DNA of 64,000 nt, taken from an uncultured Flavobacteriaceae bacterium (GTDB lineage Bacteria > Bacteroidota > Bacteroidia > Flavobacteriales > Flavobacteriaceae). The stretch spans positions 310,001-374,000 of the forward strand of contig CANLWG010000001.1 in the NCBI GenBank assembly GCA_947494715.1. The letters run 5' to 3'. The notes below the pieces were generated by a model. The model did not search any database. It had not been told where the DNA came from and saw only the letters and a program-made list of their open reading frames with translations. Shown here one piece after another: positions 6,511-34,067 of the stretch; the first letter of the stretch is position 1; each line of letters starts with the position of its first letter. A program made the translations under genes and the position numbers.

Positions 6511-6721
6511 CAAAGGATTTATATGGTTTTAAAGCGTTATTTAACAAATTAATAAAACACAATAAAAAGTAGAGGAATCAATACAGCCTTTATTGTGCTA
6601 ACCGTACGCTGTTGGATTATACGAAGTAAATAAAAATCCATATAAAAACATAATTTATGCATTTGGAATTATAAAAGGATTGAACCGAATGCAGCTGGGA
6701 TACCAACCTCGTAAATAATGA

Positions 6722-9401: not shown

Positions 9402-9511
9402 ATGATCGGTAAGGTATGATTCCAAAAGCAACCTCCTTGTAGGTTTTGCCATATTGACAATGGAAGTTTGAAAAGTTTAAGGATTTGAGAAGTTATAAAA
9501 TCATAAAAATA

Positions 9512-10234
9512 ATGTTGAGCAGGAAATCTTTTCCGATGCTTTTGGCATTGATAATTTCAACCAATAACCTAGCACAACAGCAGGCCAATATTGAGACCTA
9601 CATGAATTCCATCAAAACCGAACTTCAGAAGGAATGGCCAAATAACAAAACGATTCATCTCGTTTTTCATGGACATTCCGTGCCATCAGGTTACTTTAAG
9701 ACACCGGAGGTACGTAACTTGGAATCTTATCCTCATTTGACATTGGAAAAAATTAAACGAGCATATCCTACGGCGGTTGTCAATAGTATAACCACTGCCA
9801 TTGGCGGAGAACAGTCGGAACAAGGTGCAAAACGTTTCAAGGCCGAGGTCCTGAACCATAGGCCGGATGTAGTTTTCATTGATTACGCCCTAAACGATAG
9901 AAGAATTGGTTTGGAACGAGCCAAAGTCGCCTGGGAAACGATGATTAAAGAGGCATTGGACTACGGTACCAAGGTGATTGTTTTGATCCCAACACCAGAT
10001 TTAAAGGAGGATATTCTTTCAGAAAACACAAATCTGGACGAGCATAGTGAACAAATCCGCCAACTAGCAAGAACATATGGAGTTGGATTAGTAGACAGTT
10101 ATGCTTTTTTTAGGGGAATCGCCCAAACTGAGGATATTACTTCATATATGACCCAAAGCAACCATATTAATCAAAAAGGTCATGAGGTTGTAGCGAAGGC
10201 GATTTTCGGGTTTTTTAAAAATGATAACGAATAA
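9512..10234 (+). CDS. SGNH/GDSL-type hydrolase, secreted
   Basis: ATG 9512 is preferred (240 residues) over an in-frame TTG at 9485, because it puts a normal signal peptide (about residues 1-22, L-L-A-L-I-I-S) at the N-terminus. The nucleophile block is F-H-G-H-S-V-P-S-G (Ser 57), a variant of G-D-S. V-F-I-D-Y-A-L-N-D-R supplies the block III Asn and S-N-H-I-N-Q-K-G-H the catalytic His; the usual block V Asp is replaced by Asn or displaced. Such proteins deacylate polysaccharides. The gene ends 9 bp before the first GH2 gene, so it probably removes acetyl or other acyl groups to open the glycan to those enzymes. Activity is inferred from the fold only. Confidence 0.8.
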   Translation: MLSRKSFPMLLALIISTNNLAQQQANIETYMNSIKTELQKEWPNNKTIHLVFHGHSVPSGYFKTPEVRNLESYPHLTLEKIKRAYPTAVVNSITTAIGGEQSEQGAKRFKAEVLNHRPDVVFIDYALNDRRIGLERAKVAWETMIKEALDYGTKVIVLIPTPDLKEDILSENTNLDEHSEQIRQLARTYGVGLVDSYAFFRGIAQTEDITSYMTQSNHINQKGHEVVAKAIFGFFKNDNE

Positions 10235-13072: not shown

Positions 13073-13127
13073 ACGTAAAATGGAAAGCACAGATTACAAA
13101 ATACAAAAACGATTCAAAAATATATAC

Positions 13128-15974
13128 ATGAAGAATATAATACAATGTGTTGCTATTGTACTATTCCTTTTGGTATACGCTTGTGGAAAACAGGATGTAC
13201 AACAAATTGATCTGTCTGGGGAATGGCAATTTAAAATGGACTCTTCGGATCATGGTATTTCCGAAAAATGGTACACGGAACAATTTTCGGAAACCGTCCA
13301 ATTGCCAGGATCCATGGCGGAAAATGGAAAGGGAAATAACGTTACCGTAAATAGCGAATGGACCGGAACAATAGTGGACAGTACATGGTTCCATGATGAA
13401 AAATATGCCAAATATAGGGAGCCGGGCAACGTGAAGATTCCCTTTTGGCTGCAACCTGAAAAGCACTATATAGGTGTGGCATGGTATCAAAAGGAGGTCG
13501 AAATTCCCTCAAATTGGGATGCAAAGCACATTGAACTTATTCTTGAACGCCCCCATTGGGAGACTCAAATATGGATCAATGATCAACATGTGGGCATGCA
13601 GAACAGCTTGGGTACGGCCCATATCTATAATCTGACCGAGTACCTAAAACAGGGAAAGAACAACATTTCCATACGGGTAGACAATCGTGTTAAGGATATT
13701 CATCCCGGAGAGAATTCCCACAGTATTTCGGATCATACCCAGAGCAACTGGAATGGAATAGTCGGGGAAATTAAGTTGGCCGCAACCTCCAAGGTGGTTT
13801 TGAAAAACATAAAGCTCTATCCGGACGTGGCCAATAAAAAGGTTATAGTAAAGGCGCAGGTCCGAAATTTCACTGGGACACCCCAAAAATGTCAGTGGGT
13901 GGCTGAGGTATTTGGCCCTGAAGAAAACCACAAGGCATTGGGCCAAGTAGTGCAAGATATTGAAGTGGATACTGAGGGGCAATTGGAAATGGAGTACCCT
14001 ATGGGCGAATCTCCTTTGCTTTGGGACGAGTTCAACCCCAATCTATACACTATGGAACTTCGCCTAAAATCATCTTCAGGGACCGATTCGGAAAAAATGG
14101 TCTTTGGGATGCGGGAATTTAAGACGAAGGGAAGGCGTTTTACGATTAATGGGAACCCCGTTTTTTTGCGTGGCACCCTTGAATGTGCCATTTTCCCTAA
14201 AACCGGATATCCAGCAACGGATGTTGCTGAATGGAAAAGAATTTTGAATATCTGTAAGTCCCATGGGTTGAACCATATGCGATTCCATTCCTGGTGTCCG
14301 CCCGAGGCCGCTTTTCAGGCCGCGGATGAACTTGGTGTTTATTTGCAGGTTGAAGCTTCGAGTTGGGCCAATTTTAAAGGCTCCGGTGTTGGGGATGGTG
14401 AGGCCATTGATCAATGGCTATATCAGGAAGCGGACCATATTTTGGATGCCTATGGCGACCACCCCTCTTTTGTAATGATGGCTTATGGCAACGAACCCGG
14501 TGGTGAAAATCAAAATGCATATTTGACCCGGTTCGTGGATCATTTTAAGGCCAAGGATAACAGAAGGGTCTATACAGGGGGTGCCGGTTGGCCATTTCTG
14601 GAAAATCTGGATTATTATAACAATCATGGAGCACGGATACAAGGATGGGGACAAGGTCTAAAGAGTGTTATCAATAGTGAACCTCCCCAAACCATGTATG
14701 ATTTTAGGGATACCATACAAAAAACTCCAATGCCCTATGTGAGCCATGAAATTGGGCAATGGTGTGTGTATCCCAATTTCAAAGAAATCGATAGGTATAC
14801 CGGGGTATTGAGGGCCAAGAACTTCGAGATTTTCCAAGAGACTTTGGAGGAAAACCATATTGGGCATTTGGCGGATAGCTTATTGTTGGCATCGGGGAAA
14901 TTACAGGCGTTGTGCTACAAGGCAGATATCGAGGCGGCCCTGCGAACCAAGGATATGGCCGGTTTTCAATTGTTGGACCTGCATGATTTTCCTGGACAAG
15001 GTACCGCCCTAGTGGGGGTATTGGACGCCTTTTGGGAAGAGAAAGGATATATTTCCCCGGAAGAGTACAAACGCTTCTGTAATGCTACGGTTCCCTTGGC
15101 GCGTTTGAAAAAGCGGGTTTTCCATAATAACGAAACCCTAAAGGCTGCCATTGAAGTGGCCCATTTTGGCGAAAAGGTTTTACAAGACTCCCCCATTTCC
15201 TGGAAACTAACGGATTCCAACAAAACTATTGCCCAGGGCAGTTTTTCAAAACAGGAAATCCCATTGGGCAATGGCATAGAACTGGGAACTATTGCAGTAG
15301 AACTAGATAAGATTTTGGAAGCCAAGAAGCTGACACTTACCGTTACCGTGGCCGAGTTTTCAAATAGCTGGGACATTTGGGTATATCCGACGGAAAACGA
15401 AAAGATACCCCAAGAAAACGGGATCAAGGTCGTCCATAAACTGGATAGAGCTACCCTACATTATTTGGAGAACGGCGGCAAGGTTTTGCTGAACCCCTCC
15501 AAGGGAAGCATACGGCCGGAAAAAGGCGGTGATATAGGGGTCGGTTTTTCGAGTATCTTCTGGAACACCGCCTGGACCCGTGGACAAAAGCCACATACCT
15601 TGGGCATTCTCTGTAATCCGGAACATCTAGCCTTGGCCAAGTTTCCAACGGAATACCATTCCAATTGGCAGTGGTGGGATGCCATGAGCCATTCCAATGC
15701 CATAATTTTGGATGAGTTTACCCCTAAACTGAAGCCTATTGTCCGTATCGTAGATGATTGGTTCAAGAACAGAAGATTAGCCTTAATTTTTGAGGCAAAA
15801 GTGGGTAAAGGTAAAATTATCGTCTCAGGAATAGATCTGCATACGAACCTAAAGGAAAGACTGGAGGCGCAACAAATGCGATATAGCTTGGAAAAATATA
15901 TGTCCAGTGATCAATTTAACCCCAAAGTTCAATTGGAGGCAAAACAAATCATGGATCTAATCAAGGATAATTAG
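13128..15974 (+). CDS. GH2-type glycoside hydrolase lipoprotein, paralog 2
   Basis: The open frame extends up to 13005 and overlaps the previous gene, but ATG 13128 gives a clean lipoprotein signal (IIQCVAIVLFLLVYAC) and 948 residues; a longer N-terminus would be out of register with paralog 1. The domain order is as in paralog 1, with acid/base Glu 456 (A-Y-G-N-E-P) and nucleophile Glu 541 (S-H-E-I-G-Q-W). Long identical stretches such as 'CYKADIEAALRTKDMAGFQL' show a recent duplication. A five-residue insertion (N-F-K-G-S-G region, about residue 415) near the active-site loop separates it from paralog 1 and could alter specificity. The gap to GH97 is 20 bp. Confidence 0.9.
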   Translation: MKNIIQCVAIVLFLLVYACGKQDVQQIDLSGEWQFKMDSSDHGISEKWYTEQFSETVQLPGSMAENGKGNNVTVNSEWTGTIVDSTWFHDEKYAKYREPGNVKIPFWLQPEKHYIGVAWYQKEVEIPSNWDAKHIELILERPHWETQIWINDQHVGMQNSLGTAHIYNLTEYLKQGKNNISIRVDNRVKDIHPGENSHSISDHTQSNWNGIVGEIKLAATSKVVLKNIKLYPDVANKKVIVKAQVRNFTGTPQKCQWVAEVFGPEENHKALGQVVQDIEVDTEGQLEMEYPMGESPLLWDEFNPNLYTMELRLKSSSGTDSEKMVFGMREFKTKGRRFTINGNPVFLRGTLECAIFPKTGYPATDVAEWKRILNICKSHGLNHMRFHSWCPPEAAFQAADELGVYLQVEASSWANFKGSGVGDGEAIDQWLYQEADHILDAYGDHPSFVMMAYGNEPGGENQNAYLTRFVDHFKAKDNRRVYTGGAGWPFLENLDYYNNHGARIQGWGQGLKSVINSEPPQTMYDFRDTIQKTPMPYVSHEIGQWCVYPNFKEIDRYTGVLRAKNFEIFQETLEENHIGHLADSLLLASGKLQALCYKADIEAALRTKDMAGFQLLDLHDFPGQGTALVGVLDAFWEEKGYISPEEYKRFCNATVPLARLKKRVFHNNETLKAAIEVAHFGEKVLQDSPISWKLTDSNKTIAQGSFSKQEIPLGNGIELGTIAVELDKILEAKKLTLTVTVAEFSNSWDIWVYPTENEKIPQENGIKVVHKLDRATLHYLENGGKVLLNPSKGSIRPEKGGDIGVGFSSIFWNTAWTRGQKPHTLGILCNPEHLALAKFPTEYHSNWQWWDAMSHSNAIILDEFTPKLKPIVRIVDDWFKNRRLALIFEAKVGKGKIIVSGIDLHTNLKERLEAQQMRYSLEKYMSSDQFNPKVQLEAKQIMDLIKDN

Positions 15975-15994
15975 GCATATCTTAAATTTTGGTA

Positions 15995-17953
15995 ATGAAA
16001 CATATTTTTTACTTTCTGCTCCTTTTTGCAGCAACAGGTCTTGTGAATGCCAAAGAGTATAGGGTTGTTTCTCCGGACAAAACAGTTGTACTTCAGGTAT
16101 CCATAACCGATAAGATCGGGATACAGGCCACTCACGGGGAGCATATCCTGTTTTCCGTTTCGGACATTGCCATGCAGCTAGCCGATGGGGTCATTTTAGG
16201 ACGAGATCTCAAGGTGAGAAAATCAAATACGGAATTCCATAATGGGATAATCAAACCTGTAATACGAGAGAAATTATCCGAAATAAAGGATATATACAAT
16301 GAATTGACACTATATTTCAGGGGAAAGTATGCCCTAAAAGTCAGGGTGTATAACCATGGGATTTCCTATAGGTTCCTCACTTTTTTTAATTCGGACATTA
16401 CCGTTGTTTCAGAGAATATGAAGGTTGAGTTTCCAGAAGACAGTCATGCCTATTTTCAAGAGTCACCCAGTTTTAACTCCTCCTACGAGACACCATATTT
16501 AAACGAAAGAATAAAGGACATTGGAGAAACCGGATACCTTGGGCTTCCCTTTTTGGTCACTCCCGAACAGGGTCCACGGATATTGGTTACCGAAGCAGAT
16601 CTTGAGGATTACCCCGGTTTATGGCTTAAGAAGACTGCGGACAATTCATTGGCTTCCACCCATGCGCTCTATCCGGTAGCATTTACTACGGATGAAAGCA
16701 AGCCATATGGTCTTGGTCAGGTTACGGAAACTGCCAATTACATTGCCAAGACCAAAGGTTCCCGGTCTTTTCCGTGGCGTGTATTCGTCTTGGCAGAAAC
16801 CGATGCCGATTTGCTGACCAATACCCTGGTATATCAATTGGCAAAACCTTTGCAGATTCAAGATGCCTCTTGGATAAAGACCGGGGTGGTCACCTTTGAT
16901 TGGTGGGGCAGGCGTAGTATTTATGGTGTCGACTTTAAAGCAGGTGTTAATACAGAAACAGCTAAATACTTTATCGATTTTGCTTCGGAATTTGGTTTTG
17001 AATACTTTCTGTTCGATGATGGTTGGTCTGCCCAAGGCGATATCACCCAAGTACATCCTGATTTGGATATGCTGGAAGTGATGGACTATGCCCGAAAAAG
17101 GAACGTTAAAATAATGCTCTGGGCCATTTGGTCCGCCTTTGAGAAGGATTGGGAAGGGAATTTTGACCGCTTCGAAAAATGGGGTATCGAAGGCATTAAA
17201 TTTGATTTTATGAACCGCGATGACCAAAAAATGGTCCAGTTTTACCTTAGGGCGGCCAAGGAAGCCGCAAAACGAAAAATGGTACTGAATTTTCACGGAG
17301 CCTATAAACCCGCGGGGCTTCGTAGGGCATATCCCAATGTAATCACCTGGGAAGCGTTGATCGAGTTTGAATACAACGGTTGGACCGATTATGTAACCCC
17401 CGATCATGATAACCTGTTGCCATATCTTAGGATGGTGACCGGTCCTATGGATTATATTCCCTATACTACTAATAATGCCCAAAAAGGCTATTTTAGGAAT
17501 AATGGGGATCAACCCATGGGGCAGGGAACTCGGGCCCATTCCATGGCATTGTTCGTTATTTTGGAAAGTCCTATGCAAATGCTACCGGATAGTCCTTCTG
17601 CCTATTTAAGGGAACGGGAATGTACAGAGTTTATCGCCGGTATTCCCACGGAATGGGATGAGATCAAGGTATTGGAAGCAAAAATGGGAGACTACACTAT
17701 CCTTGCCAGAAGAAGCGGGGAGGATTGGTTTGTAGGTGCCATCACGGATTGGGAAGCCAGGGATTTCAAACTATCATTGGACTTTCTCGATGAGGGTACC
17801 TATGACATGGAATTCATTGAGGACGGTATTAATGCAGAAACCATGGCCATTGATTATCGCAAAGGAACGGAAAAGGTAACAAACGCTACAAAAAAAAGAA
17901 TCCAAATGGCTCCGGGTGGAGGGTGGATAGCTAAACTCATTAAAAATTACTAA
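15995..17953 (+). CDS. Glycoside hydrolase family 97, probably retaining type
   Basis: ATG 15995 (652 residues) is favoured over a TTG two codons upstream; it starts a signal peptide ending near V-N-A-K. The N-terminal beta-sandwich (about 22-280) is followed by a barrel with 'FDWWGRRSIYGVDFKAGVN' and 'YFLFDDGWS', typical of GH97. Asp 404 in I-K-F-D-F-M-N-R-D-D fits the nucleophile of retaining GH97 alpha-galactosidases; inverting SusB-type enzymes lack it. The following segment reads T-W-E-A-L-I-E-F-E where the family usually has R-E-G-V-x-G-x-E, so the acid/base region is divergent. Likely product: periplasmic alpha-galactosidase or related alpha-glycosidase acting with the flanking GH2 enzymes. 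The substrate is inferred. Confidence 0.88.
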   Translation: MKHIFYFLLLFAATGLVNAKEYRVVSPDKTVVLQVSITDKIGIQATHGEHILFSVSDIAMQLADGVILGRDLKVRKSNTEFHNGIIKPVIREKLSEIKDIYNELTLYFRGKYALKVRVYNHGISYRFLTFFNSDITVVSENMKVEFPEDSHAYFQESPSFNSSYETPYLNERIKDIGETGYLGLPFLVTPEQGPRILVTEADLEDYPGLWLKKTADNSLASTHALYPVAFTTDESKPYGLGQVTETANYIAKTKGSRSFPWRVFVLAETDADLLTNTLVYQLAKPLQIQDASWIKTGVVTFDWWGRRSIYGVDFKAGVNTETAKYFIDFASEFGFEYFLFDDGWSAQGDITQVHPDLDMLEVMDYARKRNVKIMLWAIWSAFEKDWEGNFDRFEKWGIEGIKFDFMNRDDQKMVQFYLRAAKEAAKRKMVLNFHGAYKPAGLRRAYPNVITWEALIEFEYNGWTDYVTPDHDNLLPYLRMVTGPMDYIPYTTNNAQKGYFRNNGDQPMGQGTRAHSMALFVILESPMQMLPDSPSAYLRERECTEFIAGIPTEWDEIKVLEAKMGDYTILARRSGEDWFVGAITDWEARDFKLSLDFLDEGTYDMEFIEDGINAETMAIDYRKGTEKVTNATKKRIQMAPGGGWIAKLIKNY

Positions 17954-18011: not shown

Positions 18012-21000
18012 ATGAAAGTAAAAACCTGGAAGGAAAAAGTAACCATCCCTACCTATGACATCGGGATACCCGAAAAGTATCCCGTGTTTTTAGAAAAAAG
18101 AGTATATCAAGCTAGTAGCGGGGCCGTTTATCCTCATCCGGTGATAGAACATATCAGCGATGAAAAAGTAGACAAGGAATGGGAGGTCATCTTTATTGAA
18201 AACGAGTATATTAAGATTATGGTACTTCCAGCGCTGGGCGGGCGTATTCAAATGGCTTATGATAAAGTAAAGGAACGCCATTTTGTATATTACAATCATG
18301 TCATAAAACCTGCATTGGTAGGACTTACCGGACCTTGGATTTCAGGAGGGATCGAATTCAACTGGCCGCAACACCATAGGCCCAGTACCTACAATTCCGT
18401 CGATTGCTATATTGAGGAAAACGAAGATGGTAGCAAAACGGTCTGGGTCAGTGAAGTAGAGCGCATGTTCCGAACCAAGGGTATGGCTGGTTTTACCCTG
18501 TATCCTGATAAGGCCTATGTGGAAATCAAGGCGCAATTGTATAACAGGACACCACATGCACAAACGTTTTTGTGGTGGGCCAATCCCGCGGTCGCTGTAA
18601 ATGACCACTATCAATCGGTCTTTCCACCGGATGTGAATGCAGTCTTTGACCACGGTAAGCGTGATGTTTCCGAATTTCCGATAGCCAAGGGAACCTATTA
18701 CAAGGTGGATTATTCCCCGGGTACGGATATTTCCAAATATAAAAATATTCCGGTGCCTACCTCCTATATGGCCATAACTTCCAACTATGATTTTGTCGGC
18801 GGCTATGAAAATGATACCAAGGGGGGATTATTGCATATTGCCGATCACCATATATCTCCTGGAAAAAAACAATGGACCTGGGGCAATGGGGATTTTGGAC
18901 ATGCCTGGGATCGAAACCTGACCGATTCTGATGGGCCCTATATTGAGCTGATGTGTGGTGTATATACGGATAACCAGCCTGATTTTTCATGGATGCATCC
19001 GTATGAGGAAAAGAGTTTCAAGCAGTATTTCATGCCTTATCACAATGTAGGTGTTGTGAAAAATGCGACCAAGGAAGCCTTGTTGAATTTGGAATTCTAT
19101 AAAGGCAAGGTCACTCTTAAGCTACATGTAACCGGTTGTTATCCGCAATGTGTCATCGAATTGCAGTATGATGATCAAATCCTGTTTCAGGATTCCAGAG
19201 ATTTGGACCCGTCAAACGGGTATGAGAATACTATAACTGTTGAGGATGCGCTACATCAAAATCTTAGGGCCAGTTTAAAGAATGCAGACGGCCATGTACT
19301 GGTGAGTTGGATGCCGGATGGTCCGAAATCGGAAGCCATTCCCGAACCGGCCAAAGCGGCAAGACTTCCTGAGGAAATCGAGAGCTTGGAGGAGTTATTT
19401 CTTAATGGATTACATCTGGAACAATATCGCCATGCTACCTATGATGCCTCACAATACTATTTGGAAGGGCTTTCAAGGGAACCCAAGGATGTACGATGCA
19501 ACAACGCCATGGGGCTATGGTATATGAAACGTGGACAATTTAAAAAAGCCTTACCCTATTTTGATAGGGCCATAGAAACCCTTACGGAACGCAATCCGAA
19601 TCCCTATGACGGAGAACCTTATTTTAACAAAGGGCTGACATTACGGTTTTTGGGCAAGAATAAGGAGGCCTATGCAGCTTTCTTTAAAGCGTGTTGGAAT
19701 GCCGCATGGCAGGATGCGGGCTATTTTAACCTTGCCCAGATTGATTGCCTACATGGCCGATATGAAAAGGCTGTGGAATTGGTAGACAAGGCCCTAATAC
19801 GAAATTGGCATAACCATAAGGCCCGGCATTTGAAGGTAATCTTACTAAGGAAATTGGGAAGAATTGGCCAGGCCATGGCTTTGATTGAAGAGTCGCTCAC
19901 CATAGATCGTTTCAATTTTGGAGTTCTCTATGAAAAATATCTATTGCATAAGAACACGGAGGAACTTAACGAGTTTAAGGAAATGCTTCGCAATGAGGTA
20001 CATAATTATATTGAATTTTCATTGGATTATGCCCAGGCCGGTCGATATTCCGAAGCCATTTCTTTACTTCAACTATATCTAGCCGATAGGAAGAAGGTAT
20101 ATCCCATGGTCCATTACTTTTTGGGTTGGTACCAAGAGCAAATAGGGGAATTGGAAGCGGCCCATACTTCGTATAGGAAGGCACAACAAATGCCCATGGA
20201 CTATTGTTTCCCAAACCGTTTAGAAGAGGTTCTTGTGTTGCAAAGTGCCATAAAGGCCAATCCAAAGGACGACAGGGCACCCTATTATCTGGGCAATTTT
20301 TGGTATGCCTCTAGGCAATACAATGAGGCGAAACACTGTTGGGAGACTGCGATTAGTATAGAGCCCAAAAATGCTATTGGTCATCGCAATATATCACTCT
20401 TGTATTTTAACAAGACCAAGGATAAGGAGCTGGCCAGAAAACATCTTGAAAAAGCATTTTCTCTGGAGCCGGACAATGCGCGCTTGTTGATGGAATTGGA
20501 TCAGTTGTACAAAAAATTGAACGTTTCCATAGAGGAAAGGCTAGGTCTCTTGGAAAAACATTTGGATCTCACCTTGTCCAGGGACGATTTGTACTTGGAG
20601 CGCGTCTCCCTGTATAATTTCAAGGGAGACCATGAAAAAGCCCTTGAATTGATAGGGAAACGGCAATTTCATCCGTGGGAAGGTGGTGAAGGCAAAGTAC
20701 CCTTTCAATATTTTACAGCAAGAATAGAATGTGCAAAACAGTACTTGATTCGGCGGAGTCCTAAAAAAGCATTGATTCATTTGGAAGCCGTACAATCGTA
20801 TCCTCATAATTTGGGCGAAGGTAAACTATATGGTGCTCAGGAAAATGATATCTTTTATTGGTTGGGTTGTGCCTATGAACAGTTGGAGGATTTGGAAACA
20901 GCCCATAAGTTTTGGGAAAAGGCGGCTACAGGCTTAAACGAGTTGGGGGCGGCCCTGTTCTATAACGATCAACAACCGGACAAGATTTTTTACCAAGGAT

Positions 21001-21329
21001 TGGCCTTGTTAAAATTACAACGCAACCGGGAAGCACAGGAACGGTTTCAAAAATTCATCGATTACGGTAAGTCGCATATGAACGATAAGGTAAGGCTCGA
21101 CTATTTTGCCATTTCCCTGCCCGACCTTTTGATATGGGAAGAAGATTTGAATCTTCGGAATAAAATCCATTGCCAGTATCTTTTAGGCCTTGGGAAAATG
21201 GGACTTGGTGAACAAGATAGTGCCCAAGATGCTTTTAAAACAGTTTTAGAACAACACCGCTACCATTTGTCTGCACAATTGCACTTGAACATGAATAGAA
21301 ATACCGAGCTGAGTTTTCAAAAGTCATAG
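18012..21329 (+). CDS. DUF5107 domain protein with C-terminal TPR repeats
   Basis: The 1105-residue protein has no signal peptide, so it is probably cytoplasmic. Residues about 25-330 form a DUF5107 domain, recognised by 'IKIMVLPALGGRIQMAYDK' and 'GGIEFNWPQHHRPSTY'; this beta-rich domain resembles mutarotase-like sugar-binding folds. Residues about 460-1100 are a long run of tetratricopeptide repeats ('GLWYMKRGQFKKALPYFDRA', 'AHTSYRKAQQMPMD', 'AIGHRNISLLYFNKTKDKE' and more). The DUF5107-TPR combination is common in Bacteroidota sugar-use loci, but its biochemical activity is not established to my knowledge. It lies between GH97 and the third GH2 gene, so processing of an imported oligosaccharide is a fair guess. 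Confidence 0.85.
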   Translation: MKVKTWKEKVTIPTYDIGIPEKYPVFLEKRVYQASSGAVYPHPVIEHISDEKVDKEWEVIFIENEYIKIMVLPALGGRIQMAYDKVKERHFVYYNHVIKPALVGLTGPWISGGIEFNWPQHHRPSTYNSVDCYIEENEDGSKTVWVSEVERMFRTKGMAGFTLYPDKAYVEIKAQLYNRTPHAQTFLWWANPAVAVNDHYQSVFPPDVNAVFDHGKRDVSEFPIAKGTYYKVDYSPGTDISKYKNIPVPTSYMAITSNYDFVGGYENDTKGGLLHIADHHISPGKKQWTWGNGDFGHAWDRNLTDSDGPYIELMCGVYTDNQPDFSWMHPYEEKSFKQYFMPYHNVGVVKNATKEALLNLEFYKGKVTLKLHVTGCYPQCVIELQYDDQILFQDSRDLDPSNGYENTITVEDALHQNLRASLKNADGHVLVSWMPDGPKSEAIPEPAKAARLPEEIESLEELFLNGLHLEQYRHATYDASQYYLEGLSREPKDVRCNNAMGLWYMKRGQFKKALPYFDRAIETLTERNPNPYDGEPYFNKGLTLRFLGKNKEAYAAFFKACWNAAWQDAGYFNLAQIDCLHGRYEKAVELVDKALIRNWHNHKARHLKVILLRKLGRIGQAMALIEESLTIDRFNFGVLYEKYLLHKNTEELNEFKEMLRNEVHNYIEFSLDYAQAGRYSEAISLLQLYLADRKKVYPMVHYFLGWYQEQIGELEAAHTSYRKAQQMPMDYCFPNRLEEVLVLQSAIKANPKDDRAPYYLGNFWYASRQYNEAKHCWETAISIEPKNAIGHRNISLLYFNKTKDKELARKHLEKAFSLEPDNARLLMELDQLYKKLNVSIEERLGLLEKHLDLTLSRDDLYLERVSLYNFKGDHEKALELIGKRQFHPWEGGEGKVPFQYFTARIECAKQYLIRRSPKKALIHLEAVQSYPHNLGEGKLYGAQENDIFYWLGCAYEQLEDLETAHKFWEKAATGLNELGAALFYNDQQPDKIFYQGLALLKLQRNREAQERFQKFIDYGKSHMNDKVRLDYFAISLPDLLIWEEDLNLRNKIHCQYLLGLGKMGLGEQDSAQDAFKTVLEQHRYHLSAQLHLNMNRNTELSFQKS

Positions 21330-21412: not shown

Positions 21413-24229
21413 ATGGAACACCTAGTGAAGAGTTTTCCGGTTAGATTTAAATATATGGGCTACTTGTTGTTTGGACTGTTTTTCCTGCAATGTTCGGAGC
21501 CTTCATCAAACCAAATCTCCTTAGAAGGCGAATGGCGGGTAAAACTAGATTCCCTGGATAAGGGATTTGATGAAAATTGGGCCGATATCAACTTGGAGGG
21601 TGTCCAAGTAAGTCTGCCCGGCACCTTGGACGATGCCGGTATAGGAACGCCAAACCAGCTAAAGCCTGAGCTAGACAACTATGTGCTTTCCAACCTAGCG
21701 CGCAATCACCAATACATTGGTAAGGCTTGGTATCAAAAGGAAGTGGAAATCCCTAGGCAGTGGGAAAATAAGGACATCCACTTGACCCTGGAAAGGGTCA
21801 TTTGGGAGTCTACAATTTTTGTGGATGGTAAGCTCACAGGTAAAGCTGAAAGTCTGGTCGGGGCACATGAATATGATTTGACCCAGGAACTTTCCCCGGG
21901 AAAACATCTGCTGACCATTTGTATTGATAATTCCAATAAATACCCGTTGATCAATGTAGGGGGCAGTAAGTACCCGGATCCCATTAATCAGGATATGGCC
22001 CATGGATATACTAACCATACCCAGATTAAGTGGAACGGAATTATAGGAGATATCCTTTTAAAAGCCACAGAACCCAATGCTCCACGAAACTTGCAAATCT
22101 ATCCGGATATAGAGAACAATGCACTAGGAATCACTTACGAACAGGGGCGTCCGGATTTGGAGAATTCTCAGTTCCAGATAATGGACAACACCGGTAGTCC
22201 CTTGATTACTGTGTATGTGGAGGGAGCCGAAATAGAAGGGAATACCGTAAGCTTTCAAATCACCAAACCTGACAGCCTTAAATTTTGGGACGAGTTTCAA
22301 CCCAATGTGTATGAGGCAAGAGTTATTGTTGCTTCGGATACCCTTAGGGCAAGTTTTGGCTACAAGGATGTAGCCAACCATCAGGGCAAACTTATTTTGA
22401 ATGGCAACCCTATCTTTTTACGAGGGAACTTGGAGTGTTCCATTTTCCCGTTGACCGGTTATCCGCCTATGGAAAAAGAAGATTGGGCCAAGTTAATTGA
22501 ACAGGCCAAGGCCTACGGACTCAACCATCTACGCTTCCATTCCTGGTGTCCTCCTAGAGCTGCCTTTGAAGCGGCTGATGAAGCGGGGTTCTACCTGCAG
22601 GTTGAGCCGGCCCATTGGAGCCTAAGAGTAGGCGAGGATGAAAAAACCACCCGATTCTTAAGAAACGAAGCCGAAAAAATGCTTCAGGATTATGGCAACC
22701 ATCCCTCCTTTCTTTTAATGGCCTTGGGCAATGAACTTCAGGGTGATGCCGATTTGATGAATACAATAATCGCCGATTTAAAAAAGAAGGATAACCGCCA
22801 TTTGTACATGACCACTACATTTTCATTCCAAAAGCCTATGGGTGAGCGCCCAGAACCTGAGGACGAGTATTTTGTGACCCAATGGACAGATAAGGGATGG
22901 ATTCGCGGACAAGGAATCTTCAATAATGAACCACCCCATTTTGATGCTGATTATTCCGTCAATAGTGAGCATATTGAAGTCCCATTGATATCCCATGAAA
23001 TAGGCCAGTATGCGGTCTATCCGGACTTGTCAGAAATACCCAAATACACAGGGGTTTTGGAACCCTTGAATTTTTGGGCGGTGAAAAAGGACCTTGAAAG
23101 GAAAGGCCTTTTGGAACTAGCGGATGAGTTTACAGAGGCTTCCGGTAAATTGGCGGCTATGTTGTACAAAGAGGAAATTGAACGTGCCTTGAAAACACCC
23201 AGTTTTGATGGGTTTCAGTTGTTGCAATTACAGGATTTTCCCGGACAGGGAACAGCTTTGGTTGGTTTGCTCAATGCCTTTTGGGAATCCAAAGGGGTTA
23301 TTTCCGCCAAGGAGTTTCGAAAATTCAATAGCGAGATCGTTCCGCTAATTCGGTTTAAAAAGGCGGTCTACGAAACGGGAGAAAATTTTATCGCTAGTAT
23401 TGAAGTTGCCAACTTTTATAAGCCCATGCAAGCCCAAACTCTAAAATGGTCCATCCAAAACGGGGAAGATAGTTTGGTAAAGGAAGGAATTCTTGAAAAT
23501 GTAACCCTTACCCTGGGCAATAATCAGGATATTGGGACGATTGAACTCCCAATTAAAACTGACAAGGCCCAACGATGGACTATTGAAGTAGAACTCTCTG
23601 GAACCGATTATAAAAATGATTGGCCCATTTGGGTCTATCCCAAAATCGTGGAGATTGGATTAAACGATGTTGTGATTGCCCGATCTTTTGAAGCAGCGGG
23701 CAGGGCACTGGAAAAAGGACAAAAGGTGTTTTTTACACCAAATCCCAAAAGCGTTAAGGGAATAGAGGGCCGGTTTGTACCCGTTTTTTGGAGTCCCGTG
23801 CATTTTCCCAATCAGCCCGGGACAATGGGACTGCTGATTGATTCCAAGCACCCGGCATTTCAGGATTTTCCGACCAATTCGCATACTGAATGGCAGTGGT
23901 GGGACCTCTGTATCAACTCAAAATCAGTGGTGCTGGATTCGCTTCACGTAAAGCCCCTAGTACGGGTCATTGATAATTTTGTGACCAACCATCATTTGGC
24001 CAACGTTTTTGAGGCCAAAGTGGGTAATGGAAAACTGCTGTTTTCCTCAATTGACTTACATTCCAATCTCAAAAATAGACCGGTGGCAAGACAGTTGCGG
24101 CATAGCCTGCTGCAATATATGAAGAGCGATGCGTTTAATCCTTCCAAAACCATTGAGGTGGAAAGTTTAAAAAAGATACGGTTGAATCAGAATCAAGACA
24201 AGTTTTCCACCAAGGATATCTATAATTAG
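21413..24229 (+). CDS. GH2-type glycoside hydrolase lipoprotein, paralog 3
   Basis: The protein has 938 residues from ATG 21413; M15 (starting M-G-Y-L-L-F-G) is an alternative that shortens the lipoprotein signal, whose lipobox is F-L-Q-C. The architecture matches paralogs 1 and 2, with acid/base Glu 441 (A-L-G-N-E-L) and nucleophile Glu 529 (S-H-E-I-G-Q-Y). The barrel start 'FLRGNLECSIFPLTGYPP' is shared. It is clearly more divergent: the Q-W-C after the nucleophile becomes Q-Y-A, and the acid/base loop lacks G-E-N. It therefore probably cuts a different linkage or sugar in the same glycan. Only 41 bp separate it from the hydroxyproline-pathway genes. Confidence 0.9.
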   Translation: MEHLVKSFPVRFKYMGYLLFGLFFLQCSEPSSNQISLEGEWRVKLDSLDKGFDENWADINLEGVQVSLPGTLDDAGIGTPNQLKPELDNYVLSNLARNHQYIGKAWYQKEVEIPRQWENKDIHLTLERVIWESTIFVDGKLTGKAESLVGAHEYDLTQELSPGKHLLTICIDNSNKYPLINVGGSKYPDPINQDMAHGYTNHTQIKWNGIIGDILLKATEPNAPRNLQIYPDIENNALGITYEQGRPDLENSQFQIMDNTGSPLITVYVEGAEIEGNTVSFQITKPDSLKFWDEFQPNVYEARVIVASDTLRASFGYKDVANHQGKLILNGNPIFLRGNLECSIFPLTGYPPMEKEDWAKLIEQAKAYGLNHLRFHSWCPPRAAFEAADEAGFYLQVEPAHWSLRVGEDEKTTRFLRNEAEKMLQDYGNHPSFLLMALGNELQGDADLMNTIIADLKKKDNRHLYMTTTFSFQKPMGERPEPEDEYFVTQWTDKGWIRGQGIFNNEPPHFDADYSVNSEHIEVPLISHEIGQYAVYPDLSEIPKYTGVLEPLNFWAVKKDLERKGLLELADEFTEASGKLAAMLYKEEIERALKTPSFDGFQLLQLQDFPGQGTALVGLLNAFWESKGVISAKEFRKFNSEIVPLIRFKKAVYETGENFIASIEVANFYKPMQAQTLKWSIQNGEDSLVKEGILENVTLTLGNNQDIGTIELPIKTDKAQRWTIEVELSGTDYKNDWPIWVYPKIVEIGLNDVVIARSFEAAGRALEKGQKVFFTPNPKSVKGIEGRFVPVFWSPVHFPNQPGTMGLLIDSKHPAFQDFPTNSHTEWQWWDLCINSKSVVLDSLHVKPLVRVIDNFVTNHHLANVFEAKVGNGKLLFSSIDLHSNLKNRPVARQLRHSLLQYMKSDAFNPSKTIEVESLKKIRLNQNQDKFSTKDIYN

Positions 24230-24240
24230 AATTGGTAAAA

Positions 24241-24248
24241 TATATTTG
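24241..24248 (+). promoter_or_regulatory. Possible -7 element (TAnnTTTG) before the deaminase gene
   Basis: TATATTTG matches the Bacteroidota -7 consensus exactly and lies 22 bp before the ATG at 24271. No good TTG -33 box is placed at the usual distance, so this may be a weak internal promoter of the hydroxyproline genes, or chance in AT-rich DNA. Confidence 0.35.
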
Positions 24249-24270
24249 TAATGTAATAATTCATTAAAGT

Positions 24271-25206
24271 ATGAAAGTAAACTGGGAATGGAAAGGTGTA
24301 ATGCCCGCAGTGACGACCAAGTTCACGGAAGATGATAAATTGGACCTAACTATGTTCAACAAGAACATCAAGGCGCAAATGGATGCAGGTGTCCATGGTA
24401 TTGTTTTGGGAGGATCCTTGGGAGAAGCCAGTACGCTTGTCGAAAATGAAAAGGAGGTTTTGATCAAAGAGACCCTCCAGACCGTAGCGGGCAAGATACC
24501 TGTGGTGATGACCATAGCCGAGCAGGCGACCAAGGCGGCCATAAAGGCGGCCCAAAATGCCGAAAAGCATGGGGCAGATGCATTGATGGTCCTTCCGCCG
24601 ATGCGATATAAGGCAACTGACCATGAAACCGTGGTCTATTTTAAGGAGGTGGCCCAGAATAGTGGTTTGCCTATAATGATATACAACAATCCCGTGGATT
24701 ACAAAATCGAGGTGACTTGTGATATGTTCGAAGAGTTGTTGGAGCTTAAAAATATAGGAGCGGTAAAGGAGTCCACCCGGGATATTATTAATATCGGTAG
24801 GTTGCGTAATAGATTTGGCGAGCGTTTAAAAATTCTCACCGGCGTGGATCCACTTGCCTTGGAAAGCCTTTTGTTGGGCGCGGACGGATGGGTAGCCGGA
24901 TTGGTATGCGCCTTTCCTTCGGAGACGGTCGCTATTTATGAGCTGGCCAAAGCAGGCAAGATCAAAGAGGCTACTGAAATATACCGATGGTTCCTTCCGC
25001 TATTGGAACTGGACATCAGTCCACAATTGGTACAAAACATTAAGTTGGCGGAAGTGGCTACCGGTATAGGTACCGAACATGTAAGGGCTCCAAGATTGAA
25101 ACTGAAAGGGCAGGAACGAGAACGGGTCCTGCAAGTTATAGATGAAGGGTTACGTACACGACCGGAGTTGCCAGAGTATAGGTCGCTTGCCAAATCCCTT
25201 GAATAG
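24271..25206 (+). CDS. DapA-family deaminase, likely 1-pyrroline-4-hydroxy-2-carboxylate deaminase
   Basis: This is a 311-residue class I aldolase of the dihydrodipicolinate synthase family. The N-terminal 'GVMPAVTTKFTEDDKLD', the 'GGSLGEASTL' phosphate-type loop, Tyr 138 (M-I-Y-N-N-P) and the Schiff-base Lys 166 (A-V-K-E-S) are all present. DapA-family members either make lysine precursors or act on 2-keto-3-deoxy acids or pyrroline-4-hydroxy-2-carboxylate. The three genes that follow (semialdehyde dehydrogenase, hydroxyproline epimerase, FAD oxidase) single out the last: deamination of the pyrroline to 2-oxoglutarate semialdehyde. Known alternatives are L-2-keto-3-deoxyarabonate dehydratase, which would feed the same dehydrogenase. 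The function rests on context. Confidence 0.82.
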   Translation: MKVNWEWKGVMPAVTTKFTEDDKLDLTMFNKNIKAQMDAGVHGIVLGGSLGEASTLVENEKEVLIKETLQTVAGKIPVVMTIAEQATKAAIKAAQNAEKHGADALMVLPPMRYKATDHETVVYFKEVAQNSGLPIMIYNNPVDYKIEVTCDMFEELLELKNIGAVKESTRDIINIGRLRNRFGERLKILTGVDPLALESLLLGADGWVAGLVCAFPSETVAIYELAKAGKIKEATEIYRWFLPLLELDISPQLVQNIKLAEVATGIGTEHVRAPRLKLKGQERERVLQVIDEGLRTRPELPEYRSLAKSLE

Positions 25207-25370
25207 ATTTGATAGGAATTTCAGTTTTCTCCAAGTACGGAGGTTCACAATTTATATGATTTCTTACTTAATATAAATTCCTAGTAATGCAGTTCCTTTT
25301 GGAGTTTGTTTTTTATCTTCGACGGACTACAAAAAATCGTTCACGGAAAATAGTTTAAAAAAGATCATCC

Positions 25371-26954
25371 ATGATAACTGGCAAAAATTATGTGGGTAAC
25401 GAGCTTTCGGCCAAGGGTAGTATTACCTATAACACGTTCGACCCAAAATTAAATATTCCTACGGAATGGAATTTTCATGAAGCTACGGACGAGGAAATCA
25501 ATACGGCTGCGAAGAAGGCACAATCTGCTTTTAAGGCTTACAAGAATACGTCGGGAAAACAAAAAGCTGATTTTCTAACTGCCATTGCGGAGGAAATCGA
25601 AGCTCTTGGAGATGAACTGATACAGACCTATATGCAAGAATCGGGACTTCCCGAAGGTCGAGCAAAAGGCGAACGAGGCCGTACCATGGGCCAACTAAAG
25701 GCCTTTGCCAATTTGTTGGAAGAAGGATCCTGGGTAGATGCTACCATAGACACGGCACAGCCGGATCGTCAGCCTTTGCCTAAAACGGATATTCGAAAAA
25801 TATTGGTTCCCATTGGCCCTATTGTCGTTTTTGGATCCAGCAATTTTCCGTTGGCCTTTTCAACGGCTGGTGGGGATACGGCTAGTGCGCTTGCAGCGGG
25901 GTGCCCCGTTATTGTAAAAAGTCATCCCATGCATGCAGGTACGGGAGAACTGGTGGCTTCAGCTATCATCCGGGCGGTTGGACGGACAGGAATGCCGGAC
26001 GGTGTCTTTTCCAATCTGAATAGCAGCGGAATCGAAGTGGGCCAAAAGTTGGTCATGCATCCCAATGTTAAAGGTGTTGGTTTTACGGGAAGCACTCGGG
26101 CAGGAACAGCACTGTACCAATTGGCCAATGAACGTAAGGAACCTATTCCTGTTTTTGCCGAAATGGGCAGTATTAACCCTGTTATTTTACTGCCAAGGGC
26201 GTTAATGGAAAAAGGCGGGCATTGGGCAAAGGGTTATGCGGGCTCCATTACATTGGGAGCAGGACAATTTTGCACCAATCCAGGATTGCTTTTGGGTATT
26301 AAGGGCAAAGAATTGGACGAGTTTAGTTCCATTTTGGGAGAAGAGATTGAAAAAATTGAACCTGGGTGCATGTTACATCCCAATATTTATAATGGATATG
26401 AAAAAGGAAAAGAAGAACTCTCTTCCCAATCCAAAACAGAAGTAATGGCTTCCTTTGATACGGAAGTACAACCCAATTATGGAAAGCAACGGATATTAAA
26501 GGTAGATGGGTCGGATTTTATGGCCAACCCCAAACTACATCAAGAGGTTTTTGGACCATTCTCCATTTTGGTACAATGTGAGGATATGGATGAGCTGGAG
26601 AAAGTAATCGATCAACTGGAAGGACAATTGACAGGGACGGTTTTAGGAAATGAGGAGGAGATAGAAAATTACAGTTCTGTTGTCGAAGCCTTAAAGAATA
26701 GGGTAGGGCGTTTGATTTTTAATGGGGTGCCTACCGGTGTGGAGGTCTGTCCTTCAATGCAACATGGCGGACCCTTCCCAGCAACTACGGACAGTCGTTT
26801 TACCTCCGTTGGAACTTCTGCTATTCAGCGTTGGGTGAGACCTGTGTCGTATCAAAATTGGCCGCAACAGGCTTTGCCGGACGCCTTAAAGGATGATAAT
26901 CCTTTGGGTATCATGCGCTTGGTGGATGGAAAGCATACCGCTTCAAAAATTTAA
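25371..26954 (+). CDS. Aldehyde dehydrogenase, likely 2-oxoglutarate semialdehyde dehydrogenase
   Basis: The protein has 527 residues and no signal peptide. It is an aldehyde dehydrogenase of the type that oxidises 2,5-dioxopentanoate (2-oxoglutarate semialdehyde) to 2-oxoglutarate with NAD(P)+. The catalytic Cys 301 sits in G-Q-F-C-T-N-P-G and the general base Glu 264 in A-E-M-G-S-I-N-P. The nucleotide-binding stretch 'VFGSSNFPLAFSTAGGDT' and the G-F-T-G-S-T-R loop are typical of this subgroup (type III KGSADH), in which F-A-E-M-G-S replaces the usual L-E-L-G-G. It completes both the hydroxyproline and the non-phosphorylative arabinose routes. The gap of 164 bp after the deaminase may contain a promoter, but none was clear. 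Confidence 0.88.
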   Translation: MITGKNYVGNELSAKGSITYNTFDPKLNIPTEWNFHEATDEEINTAAKKAQSAFKAYKNTSGKQKADFLTAIAEEIEALGDELIQTYMQESGLPEGRAKGERGRTMGQLKAFANLLEEGSWVDATIDTAQPDRQPLPKTDIRKILVPIGPIVVFGSSNFPLAFSTAGGDTASALAAGCPVIVKSHPMHAGTGELVASAIIRAVGRTGMPDGVFSNLNSSGIEVGQKLVMHPNVKGVGFTGSTRAGTALYQLANERKEPIPVFAEMGSINPVILLPRALMEKGGHWAKGYAGSITLGAGQFCTNPGLLLGIKGKELDEFSSILGEEIEKIEPGCMLHPNIYNGYEKGKEELSSQSKTEVMASFDTEVQPNYGKQRILKVDGSDFMANPKLHQEVFGPFSILVQCEDMDELEKVIDQLEGQLTGTVLGNEEEIENYSSVVEALKNRVGRLIFNGVPTGVEVCPSMQHGGPFPATTDSRFTSVGTSAIQRWVRPVSYQNWPQQALPDALKDDNPLGIMRLVDGKHTASKI

Positions 26955-27056
26955 CTATTTGGCAAAGAACCATGCCTTTTTAATAATCGGGCGGAGTTGA
27001 AGAAATCCTATTATTTTCTTGATTGGATAGGACGATAAATTTTGATTTGTTTTAAT

Positions 27057-28064
27057 ATGTCCGTACATAGATTTGATTGTATCGATGCACATACTTGTGG
27101 AAACCCGGTAAGATTGGTCAAAACGGGTGGGCCGCAACTTGCGGGCTCCAACATGGCCGAGAAGAGGCAGCACTTTATAAAAGAATACGATTGGATTAGA
27201 AAAGGGCTCATGTTCGAACCTCGTGGCCATGATATGATGAGTGGAAGCATCCTGTACCCACCGACCGATCCGGATAATGATATGGGCATCCTCTTTATTG
27301 AAACAAGTGGTTGTTTGCCTATGTGTGGCCATGGCACTATAGGTAGTATCACCATAGCACTGGAAGAGAATATCATTACGCCAAAAGTGCCGGGAAGAAT
27401 ACGTATGGAAACTCCGGCGGGCCTAGTTGAAATTGAGTATAGGCTAACCGATAATAAAGTGGAATGGGTAAAGCTGACCAATGTGAAATCCTATCTAACA
27501 GCTTCGGGGCTTACCATAACTAGTACTGCCTTGGGGGAATTGGAATTTGATGTGGCCTATGGAGGTAACTTCTATGCCATTTTTGATACCCAGCCCAATT
27601 TTTCCGGTTTACAGGATTTTTCAGCAAGTGAACTGATACGATTTAGTCAGGAAATCAGGGAGAAAATCAATCTTAAATACCCTGACCGATTCATCCATCC
27701 CGAAGACGATACCATTAGGGATGTGAGTCACGTTATGTGGTCGGGAGACACCCTATCCCCGGAAACCACTGCGCGCAATGCAGTATTTTATGGGGATAAG
27801 GCCATTGATCGATCACCATGTGGAACGGGTACTTCCGCACGGATGGCCCAATGGTATGCCAAGGGAAAACTTTCTGTTGGGGAACCCTTTGTACATGAGA
27901 GTTTTATTGGATCCAAATTCGAAGGAAGAGTGGAGAAGGAAACAACACTGTTGGGAGAAACGGCAATTGTACCTAGCATAAAAGGATGGGCAAGGATCTA
28001 TGGTCATAATACCATAACCATAGATGAGGATGACCCCTATGCCTATGGGTTTCAGGTAATTTGA
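27057..28064 (+). CDS. 4-hydroxyproline 2-epimerase (proline racemase family)
   Basis: ATG 27057 gives 335 residues; a TTG 15 bp upstream is in frame but unneeded. The enzyme has both catalytic cysteines: Cys 90 in M-C-G-H-G-T and Cys 255 in R-S-P-C-G-T-G. Two cysteines mark racemases or epimerases; trans-3-hydroxyproline dehydratases in this family have Thr at the second site. It should convert trans-4-hydroxy-L-proline to cis-4-hydroxy-D-proline. The N-terminal 'FDCIDAHTCGNPVRLV' is the usual family start. The stop is one base from the ATG of the oxidase that uses its product, a strong sign of co-translation. Proline racemase activity is the main alternative and is not favoured by the neighbours. 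Confidence 0.88.
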   Translation: MSVHRFDCIDAHTCGNPVRLVKTGGPQLAGSNMAEKRQHFIKEYDWIRKGLMFEPRGHDMMSGSILYPPTDPDNDMGILFIETSGCLPMCGHGTIGSITIALEENIITPKVPGRIRMETPAGLVEIEYRLTDNKVEWVKLTNVKSYLTASGLTITSTALGELEFDVAYGGNFYAIFDTQPNFSGLQDFSASELIRFSQEIREKINLKYPDRFIHPEDDTIRDVSHVMWSGDTLSPETTARNAVFYGDKAIDRSPCGTGTSARMAQWYAKGKLSVGEPFVHESFIGSKFEGRVEKETTLLGETAIVPSIKGWARIYGHNTITIDEDDPYAYGFQVI

Positions 28065-28065
28065 T

Positions 28066-29319
28066 ATGGGAAAAAAAGTTATCATTATTGGAGGAGGCAT
28101 TATAGGACTAAGCTCGGCCTATTTTTTAAGCAAGTCGGGACATGAGGTTACGGTCATCGATAAATCTAACATAAGTTCTGGGGCTTCCTTTGTAAATGCG
28201 GGGTATTTAACGCCCAGTCATATCATTCCCTTGGCCGCCCCCGGCGTTCTGATGCAGGGACTGAAATGGATGATGGATTCTTCCAGTCCTTTATACATCA
28301 AACCGCGTTGGGACTTGGATTTCTTAAAATGGTCCTGGTATTTCCATAAGTCTTCGACCAAGGCTAAAGTGGAAAAGGCCATTCCGGTCATTAAGGATAT
28401 TAATTTATTGAGCAGGGAACTTTTTAAGGACATCAAAACCTCTGGAGATCTCGGTGATTTTCAGTTGGAACGCCAAGGACTGTTAATGCTATACCAAACA
28501 AAGGCCGCTCAGGAACATGAACTAGTCGTTGCGAAGAAGGCCGAACAACTGGGCCTGAAGGTTTCCGAAGTGGATTCTTCAGGTCTTGAGCGACTTCAAC
28601 CTGAAGTGAAGATCAATGCCAAAGGAGCGATTTATTATGAATGTGATGGGCATACCACCCCTACCGAGTTCATGCCCAAAATGGTAGAACATCTAAAAAG
28701 TGTTGGTGTAAAGTTTAAAATTGATGAAGAGGTACAGGATATAACTGTAAGAGGGGATAAAATAACCGAAGTACAAACCTCAAAGGATTCATACAAAGCG
28801 GACGAAATCGTTCTAGCCGCAGGATCATGGAGCGGTAAGCTTGCCAAAAAATTGGGAACTGTATTGCCCCTACAGGCGGGTAAGGGATACAGCATAAATG
28901 TATCCAGGGATACGGGAATTACCCTCCCCGCTATCCTTATGGAAGCCAAAATGGCCGTAACTCCTATGCGTGGATTTACCAGATTTGCAGGTACCATGGA
29001 ATTTTCCGGCATAAACCACATCATACGTAGGGAGCGCGTGGAGGCCATTGCCAAGGGTGCACATCGGTTTTACCCTGAATTGGAAATAACAAAGGAAGAG
29101 AGAAGTTTGGCCAAGACGGGACTACGGCCTGTTTCTCCGGACGGGCTGCCCTACATAGGGAAATTCAAAGACCTTTCCAATCTCATTATTGCCACTGGCC
29201 ATGCCATGATGGGCTGGAGCCTAGGACCTGCAACAGGTAAATTTGTACAACAACTAATAGATGAAGTAAGACCCGATATGGATCTTACGCCTTTTAAACC
29301 TAATCGAAAATTCAACTGA
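28066..29319 (+). CDS. FAD-dependent D-amino-acid oxidoreductase, likely D-hydroxyproline dehydrogenase
   Basis: This 417-residue flavoprotein of the DadA/glycine-oxidase superfamily has an N-terminal FAD-binding Rossmann motif (I-I-G-G-G-I-I-G-L-S-S-A) followed by E-V-T-V-I-D-K. The C-terminal end carries 'GLRPVSPDGLPYIGKF' and 'ATGHAMMGWSLGPATGK', the second FAD contact seen in DadA-type enzymes. Next to a hydroxyproline epimerase, the expected reaction is oxidation of cis-4-hydroxy-D-proline to 1-pyrroline-4-hydroxy-2-carboxylate, passing electrons to the respiratory chain. It is the last gene of the plus-strand train and is followed by a convergent gene 15 bp away. Confidence 0.87.
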   Translation: MGKKVIIIGGGIIGLSSAYFLSKSGHEVTVIDKSNISSGASFVNAGYLTPSHIIPLAAPGVLMQGLKWMMDSSSPLYIKPRWDLDFLKWSWYFHKSSTKAKVEKAIPVIKDINLLSRELFKDIKTSGDLGDFQLERQGLLMLYQTKAAQEHELVVAKKAEQLGLKVSEVDSSGLERLQPEVKINAKGAIYYECDGHTTPTEFMPKMVEHLKSVGVKFKIDEEVQDITVRGDKITEVQTSKDSYKADEIVLAAGSWSGKLAKKLGTVLPLQAGKGYSINVSRDTGITLPAILMEAKMAVTPMRGFTRFAGTMEFSGINHIIRRERVEAIAKGAHRFYPELEITKEERSLAKTGLRPVSPDGLPYIGKFKDLSNLIIATGHAMMGWSLGPATGKFVQQLIDEVRPDMDLTPFKPNRKFN

Positions 29320-30888: not shown

Positions 30889-31033
30889 TCTATCCCATCT
30901 TTCGTTTTTCAGTACCTGCTAGTGAAGAGGGTCTCCAGTTCATTTTCAATTGCAACGATTTTTGGTATACGAAAGTACAAGCAAAATTTGTGATATATTT
31001 TCAAAACAATGGTTCGGATATTAAGTCATACCA

Positions 31034-32512: not shown

Positions 32513-32574
32513 GTAAAGATATGGATTTAATCCGATGCCATTTTCGACTTGAGTAATGGAACCCAGATCAGTTA

Positions 32575-33954: not shown

Positions 33955-34067
33955 TGTATTGGTTATCTGTGGGTACTAAAGATATTGAAATCATTTTAGA
34001 AAATATAATATTAACAATTTGTACTAAATAAGTATATTTAAAAACAATTGTGATAAACCTTAAAATT

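Follow-up and report, generated by a model that had tools for sequence, protein, structure and literature searches.

A trans-4-hydroxy-L-proline operon in the genome of an uncultured Flavobacteriaceae bacterium (GCA_947494715.1, contig CANLWG010000001.1) directly follows, on the same strand, a train of glycosidase genes. The window analysed here is a whole stretch of 64,000 nucleotides (contig positions 310,001 to 374,000), and positions given without a locus name are those of the window. We favour, with a probability of about 0.7, the explanation that this is an ordinary hydroxyproline operon at the edge of a variable region, which has lost its usual upstream control and may now be reached by read-through from the train. 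The adjacency itself is real and is probably recent. Most of the evidence points to an island-edge event, although recurrences of the adjacency in other genera hint that operon and glycan train may work together. The features concerned are collected in Table 1.

Two congener genomes, G217 and G299, were compared with the window. Both carry the operon, with protein identities of about 88-94% and with the same downstream genes as far as fetched. In DNA alignments, the homology with both congeners begins 16 nt inside the deaminase gene, at 24287, and runs rightward from there, at 86% over 29.8 kb for G299, followed by two more blocks to 63705 (two short breaks), and at 83-84% for G217 up to 46200, where the fetched stretch of G217 ends. 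Leftward, the homology returns only at -16992. The homologous flanks enclose 41.3 kb in the window's genome, compared with 15.0 kb in G217 and 54.0 kb in G299, and one 1.1-kb piece inside this interval is common to the window's genome and G299. Directly upstream of the operon, the congeners have a gene of 688/693 amino acids and a giant gene of 4134/4143 amino acids, the latter located at L132 5218-17649 and L111 6068-18472, where the window species has the glycosidase train. The smaller of these in G299 matches the Pfam family IgGFc_binding, and a search without positive control gave no match for the 693-residue protein in the window's genome. The DUF5107 protein, which serves as the marker of the train, has no match at 1e-200 in G217 or G299, and the last glycosidase, GH2 c, has none at 1e-100 in G217 (the GH2 c survey drew 299 genomes, with G217 in the draw and G299 outside it). 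Because the congener homology stops at the operon, the genes upstream of it there are unrelated, and DUF5107 was not found in either congener, the train can be regarded as cargo of a variable region of about 41 kb that ends at the operon. It was likely gained here and not lost in both congeners.

At the junction, the sequence-only reading had described five open reading frames (ORFs) at 21413-29319, all on the + strand, with a 41-bp gap after the third GH2 gene, and a single same-strand run with the GH2, GH97 and DUF5107 genes. The ORF coordinates agree with both statements. Between 8001 and 29319, eleven same-strand genes follow one another with no obvious boundary, and the successive gaps are 83, 9, -68, 14, 58, 83, 41, 164, 87 and 1 bp, none exceeding 164 bp. 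The 41-bp gap between GH2 c and the deaminase gene contains the element TATATTTG. No terminator-like site was listed for this gap (the region total is 14, against 10.3 in shuffled sequence with a standard deviation of 2.9). A pattern search found no full flavobacterial-type promoter in the seven window regions tested. On the + strand of the junction, a sigma-70-like scan gave two 9-of-12 sites, 24204-24232 and 24232-24260, with totals near the shuffle level (24 sites versus 17.8 in shuffles, standard deviation 4.2). Residual similarity to G299 in the 100 bp that precede the deaminase gene was too weak to be accepted, with 58 identities compared with 56 for the 95th percentile of 300 random placements.

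The regulator typical of this operon in the family is also missing from its side. The neighbours of the operon were surveyed among named genomes, in the best 80 loci of at least 590 relatives, 68 of which are full-length (21 kb), and some of the genomes are the same as those in the epimerase survey described below. An AraC-like gene, a cluster named from 25-35% similarity to one AraC protein of the window, occurs in 61 of the 68 full-length loci, where it mostly points away from the deaminase gene, and is absent from the other 7. Neither the window's genome nor the two congeners have it adjoining the operon. When a relative's AraC-like regulator was compared with the window's genome, the best match was 33%; G217 has a 41% match, placed beside a second deaminase-dehydrogenase pair. 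This second AraC-deaminase-dehydrogenase group of G217 (L136 380-3840, G217:C25) has a deaminase at 70-71%, and a second epimerase match was not found in G217.

The present arrangement probably arose as follows. Within the genus, a variable region ends on its right-hand side at the operon, and in the window species this region carries a predicted galactoside-degrading train in the order MFS, GDSL, GH2, GH2, GH97, DUF5107, GH2. A rearrangement would have fused the 3' end of GH2 c to the first deaminase codons, and for that reason the upstream region of the congeners would be absent here. The hydroxyproline genes may then be transcribed by read-through from the train promoter; alternatively, the junction may supply a weak promoter. 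The gene content, the break point, the other neighbours in the congeners and the lack of a close regulator match are direct observations; that the operon has lost its usual control region is probable.

Table 1. Features of the glycosidase train, the junction and the hydroxyproline operon, in window positions
Feature	Position	Strand	Evidence or remark
AraC-type regulator	5578..6513	-	Pfam HTH_18/AraC_binding; divergent from train
MFS sugar transporter, first gene of run	8001..9401	+	Sugar_tr 380 bits; 59-80% matches in other genomes' trains
GDSL esterase/lipase-like	9485..10234	+	Lipase_GDSL_2; found in several other trains
GH2 a, exo-beta-1,4-galactosidase-like	10244..13072	+	Pfam GH2 domains; lipoprotein-like start; GNE and SHE motifs
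GH2 b, paralogue	13005..15974	+	Pfam, NCBIfam, motif check
GH97, alpha-galactosidase-like	15989..17953	+	Three GH97 domains; 3a24 alpha-galactosidase 494 bits
DUF5107 and TPR protein, train marker	18012..21329	+	DUF5107 191 bits
GH2 c, last glycosidase gene	21413..24229	+	Pfam GH2; 8u01 598 bits; GNE/SHE motifs
Junction: 41-bp gap and start of deaminase gene	24230..24287	+	Synteny with both congeners stops here
DHDPS-family deaminase	24271..25206	+	Pfam DHDPS 189 bits
2-Oxoglutarate semialdehyde dehydrogenase (predicted)	25371..26954	+	Aldedh 164 bits; 3v4c aldehyde dehydrogenase (NADP+) 460 bits
4-Hydroxyproline 2-epimerase	27042..28064	+	Pfam Pro_racemase 410 bits; NCBIfam NF010578 569 bits
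cis-4-Hydroxy-D-proline dehydrogenase/oxidase (predicted), FAD DAO family	28066..29319	+	DAO 202 bits

The operon (24271-29319) consists of four same-strand genes for a DHDPS-family deaminase, an aldehyde dehydrogenase, a Cys-Cys 4-hydroxyproline epimerase and a flavin adenine dinucleotide (FAD) dehydrogenase. The epimerase exceeds the curated cut-off for 4-hydroxyproline epimerase (569 versus 376 bits for NF010578) and contains both cysteine motifs, MCGH and DRSPCGTG. According to the available part of PMC1964878, the pocket of hydroxyproline epimerases is distinguished from that of proline racemases by Ser or Val instead of Phe at R1, by His instead of Cys or Leu at R2, and by an XLA block at R3. 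Two of these three positions were scored by eye in an alignment to 1w61, and the window epimerase has Ser at R1 and His at R2. Its ORF starts with TTG at 27042, and an in-frame ATG five codons in may be the true start. The FAD dehydrogenase scores 257 bits with the D-amino acid dehydrogenase model NF001933, under the cut-off of 383. Among the matches listed, the deaminase, the aldehyde dehydrogenase and the FAD dehydrogenase reach no equivalog cut-off, so that the exact activities of these three enzymes are deduced from the operon. DAAO, DHDPS and ALDH partners share the operon with the epimerase here and in most of the surveyed loci of relatives. Judged from the families and from the operon, the four genes constitute a predicted trans-4-hydroxy-L-proline operon, in which the substrate would pass from the epimerase to the FAD dehydrogenase, then to the DHDPS-type deaminase and finally to the semialdehyde dehydrogenase, to yield 2-oxoglutarate. 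The assignment of the whole pathway by the sequence-only reading is thus supported by the family matches and by the epimerase score. The four superfamilies are the same as those of the trans-4-hydroxy-L-proline gene clusters (4HypE, DAAO, DHDPS, KGSA dehydrogenase) in the available part of PMC4113996; compared with those clusters, the window operon has no adjoining AraC-like regulator or peptidase gene, and it is preceded by a glycosidase train.

In the family at large, the operon is common and its usual setting is peptide-like. Of 299 family genomes, 153 (the window's own among them) have the epimerase (E 1e-60). In most hydroxyproline operons of relatives the deaminase matches that of the window at 62-81%, and a minority has variants at 30-34%. 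Seven peptidase-type clusters were distinguished, with representatives that match DPP-IV, prolidase, aminopeptidase P, M28 and DUF885 (the last of which we take to be peptidase-like). One or more of them is present in 52 of the 68 full-length loci, and in 51 loci the distance to an operon gene is no more than 3 kb; the other 16 have none. It is the presence of these genes that makes the context peptide-like. The seven representatives have no match in the 144 kb around the operon of the window's genome. Most likely, the operon acts on free hydroxyproline or hydroxyproline peptides of any source, and not specifically on the glycan-bearing protein of the train.

The train itself is of a galactosidase type. 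The nearest model for GH2 a, b and c is an exo-beta-1,4-galactosidase, and all three score under its cut-off (GH2 a, 1213 bits with NF049890 against 1500). GH2 c is without a Pfam TIM-barrel match, and it retains the GNE and SHE motifs, which are presumably catalytic. The GH97 protein reaches 673 bits with NF053844, under the cut-off of 800, and its nearest relatives are retaining alpha-galactosidases. The trains of six other Flavobacteriaceae (G218, G399, G289, G115, G153 and G381), in other genera, have the same order of MFS, GDSL, GH2, DUF5107 and GH2 c. Several of them have sulfatase-like genes within or beside the train, assigned by 22-41% similarity to window sulfatases and in one case confirmed by Pfam, whereas none lies inside the window train; unlike in the window, no hydroxyproline genes stand alongside in the stretches fetched. 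Given the galactosidase-type families and the sulfatase-like genes in relatives, the substrate of the train is probably a galactoside-rich glycan, which in relatives would be sulfated. Proteins 38-55% similar to the divergent AraC-type protein of the window stand beside or within the trains of G061, G154, G127 and G094, and this protein is likely the regulator of the train. Beyond it, SusD (554-2140) and SusC (2166-5273) genes lie on the strand opposite to the train. Since the next gene outward is an FG-GAP/ASPIC protein gene, SusC and SusD are perhaps separate from the train.

Why, then, should a galactoside train stand beside hydroxyproline genes? The sequence-only reading proposed a new type of polysaccharide utilization locus (PUL), which would strip the glycans from hydroxyproline-rich glycoproteins and consume the amino acid that anchors them. 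In such a locus, galactosidases, together with sulfatases in relatives, would remove the glycan. The same-strand run and the galactosidase-type families suit this proposal, and the use of sulfated arabinogalactan protein (AGP) is known in Bacteroides plebeius (PMC8406133, available part). The proposal of a dedicated glycoprotein PUL is not supported by the comparison with relatives. Both congeners retain the operon with other upstream genes and without DUF5107. Among 397 family genomes, 33 including the window's own have a match of at least 57% to the DUF5107-TPR protein (E 1e-200), and 22 of these, own included, also have the epimerase. In the 21 other genomes the two genes lie on different contigs in 14, which in draft assemblies does not strictly exclude nearness, and more than 100 kb apart in 5, that is, apart in 19 of 21. 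DUF5107 and the epimerase show no significant co-occurrence, as 16 of 25 DUF5107 carriers have the epimerase compared with 136 of 273 other genomes (own left out; P 0.21; counts compiled by hand, the 299 genomes being taken as a subset of the 397 and relatedness being ignored). As described above, the genes often found beside the operon are of peptidase type. A Pfam scan of 40 window ORFs (of 79 with at least 100 amino acids, the remainder mostly overlapping these 40) revealed neither a secreted endopeptidase nor a hallmark enzyme for AGP or extensin (GH43_24, GH145, GH127). GH43 and GH127 gave only sub-cut-off matches in these ORFs, on a GH130 and a DsbH-like protein. GH127, the family for hydroxyproline-linked arabinose in the available part of PMC4454575, has five matches elsewhere in the genome. 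On balance, we regard this reading as doubtful.

Several observations nevertheless weigh against a purely accidental junction. GH2 c has 48-70% matches in 9 other genomes of the 299, none of which has it on the epimerase contig, and its carriers are weakly enriched for the epimerase (8/9 versus 144/289; P 0.021 one-sided, 0.037 two-sided; relatedness uncorrected). DUF5107 and the epimerase lie within 23 kb of each other in 2 of the 21 other genomes. In G378 (L060, Seonamhaeicola sediminis) the train abuts an AraC-operon block on its 3' side, and in G343 the operon, with peptidase-type genes beyond, abuts the SusCD side of the train. A second Seonamhaeicola genome, G400, is arranged like the first; in a third with DUF5107, G402, no operon was found within the 60 kb fetched, which is the portion of that genome searched. 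Under uniform placement 0.25 such cases are expected (P 0.027). This null may be too generous; when only 50, 30 or 20% of the genome is open to placement, the probability of two or more in 21 becomes 0.09, 0.21 or 0.36. GH2- or GH97-like genes are near the operon in 3 of the 80 loci (L039, L060, L062), and SusC- or SusD-like genes in 19 of the 80. According to the sequence-only reading, the link would fail if the genes lay apart in all relatives; they do so in nearly all, except for the two Seonamhaeicola genomes and G343. As the adjacency recurs in S. sediminis and G343 in other arrangements, so that three genera show it, a selected link between train and operon may exist. One could imagine that the joining recurs because the substrate is an algal, hydroxyproline-linked and often sulfated galactan glycoprotein, the window species having gone furthest, with the usual regulator and upstream region stripped and the operon under train control. 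We consider this unlikely. The operons of Seonamhaeicola and G343 are a variant, since the DHDPS homologue beside them is only 31-34% identical to the window deaminase. In addition, DUF5107 sequences from both Seonamhaeicola genomes, from G343 and from the non-adjacent G381 are very close in the tree (end branches 0.02-0.04), and therefore these adjacencies may not represent many independent events. The GH2 c of G343 clusters with that of G153 (82/96), unlike its DUF5107. The window GH2 c clusters with those of G289, G218 and G399 (97/96), all non-adjacent, and the window DUF5107 has no settled place in its tree.

Two further explanations leave the glycosidases aside. An L-arabinonate-type pentose route would use the DHDPS and dehydrogenase genes only, and it does share these two superfamilies. 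The operon, however, also contains the epimerase and the FAD dehydrogenase, both in the window and in most of the 80 loci, and this route is highly improbable. Alternatively, the operon could serve the hydroxyproline of collagen or other animal-type prolyl peptides. The peptidase-type neighbours in the family would fit this, as would the Colwellia collagen-utilisation cluster, which in the available part of PMC7883544 holds the epimerase, D-hydroxyproline dehydrogenase, deaminase and KGSA dehydrogenase together with degradative genes, as here. The degradative partners there are an M9 collagenase and peptidases, including a hydroxyproline dipeptidase, and those in the window are glycosidases. 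With no peptidase representative matched around the operon and no collagenase in the 40 window ORFs scanned, to which the collagenase search was confined, collagen as the substrate is rather improbable.

The published systems closest to the idea of a combined locus differ from the window in other respects. The sulfated AGP PUL of B. plebeius has GH2-bearing loci for sulfated galactan, and GH2 is also present here; GH43_24 and GH145 are used there (PMC8406133, available part), and the word hydroxyproline does not occur in the main text of that paper. For Latescibacteria, glycan stripping from hydroxyproline-rich glycoproteins and amino-acid uptake were predicted, an idea akin to that of the sequence-only reading; that prediction rests on families scattered in genomes, and the available part of the source (PMC4454575) describes no hydroxyproline catabolic operon. 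The literature searched, in its partial coverage, yielded no description of a combined locus for glycan and hydroxyproline catabolism.

The glycan-related families among the 40 scanned ORFs are GH2, GH97, GH130, GH1 and sulfatases. As the sequence-only reading had noted, no obvious hydroxyproline permease was seen, here within the same 40 ORFs. After the operon, at 29989-35456, come genes for a nucleoside-hydrolase-like protein, a sodium/sulfate-dicarboxylate-type symporter, a GFO/IDH oxidoreductase and a sialate-esterase-like protein, kept in both congeners, and the symporter is a nearby candidate carrier. Further on, a BlaI-like repressor gene is in a row with an ankyrin-repeat M56 gene of the BlaR1 type and a gene for a beta-lactamase-fold protein (48071-51686). 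An M15 D-Ala-D-Ala dipeptidase-like gene (60552-61277) and a BD-FAE hydrolase gene (62793-63716) are located 36-39 kb from GH2 c; in G399 (L151 586-2213), their homologues (69% and 76%) are directly beside its GH2 c.

This case is a warning that adjacency in a single genome is weak evidence for joint function. If the link between train and operon were true, a PUL of this kind would exploit the glycan as well as the protein that anchors it, and a substrate for the DUF5107 train would be suggested. On the present evidence, the locus offers an example of how an island junction may rewire a catabolic operon.

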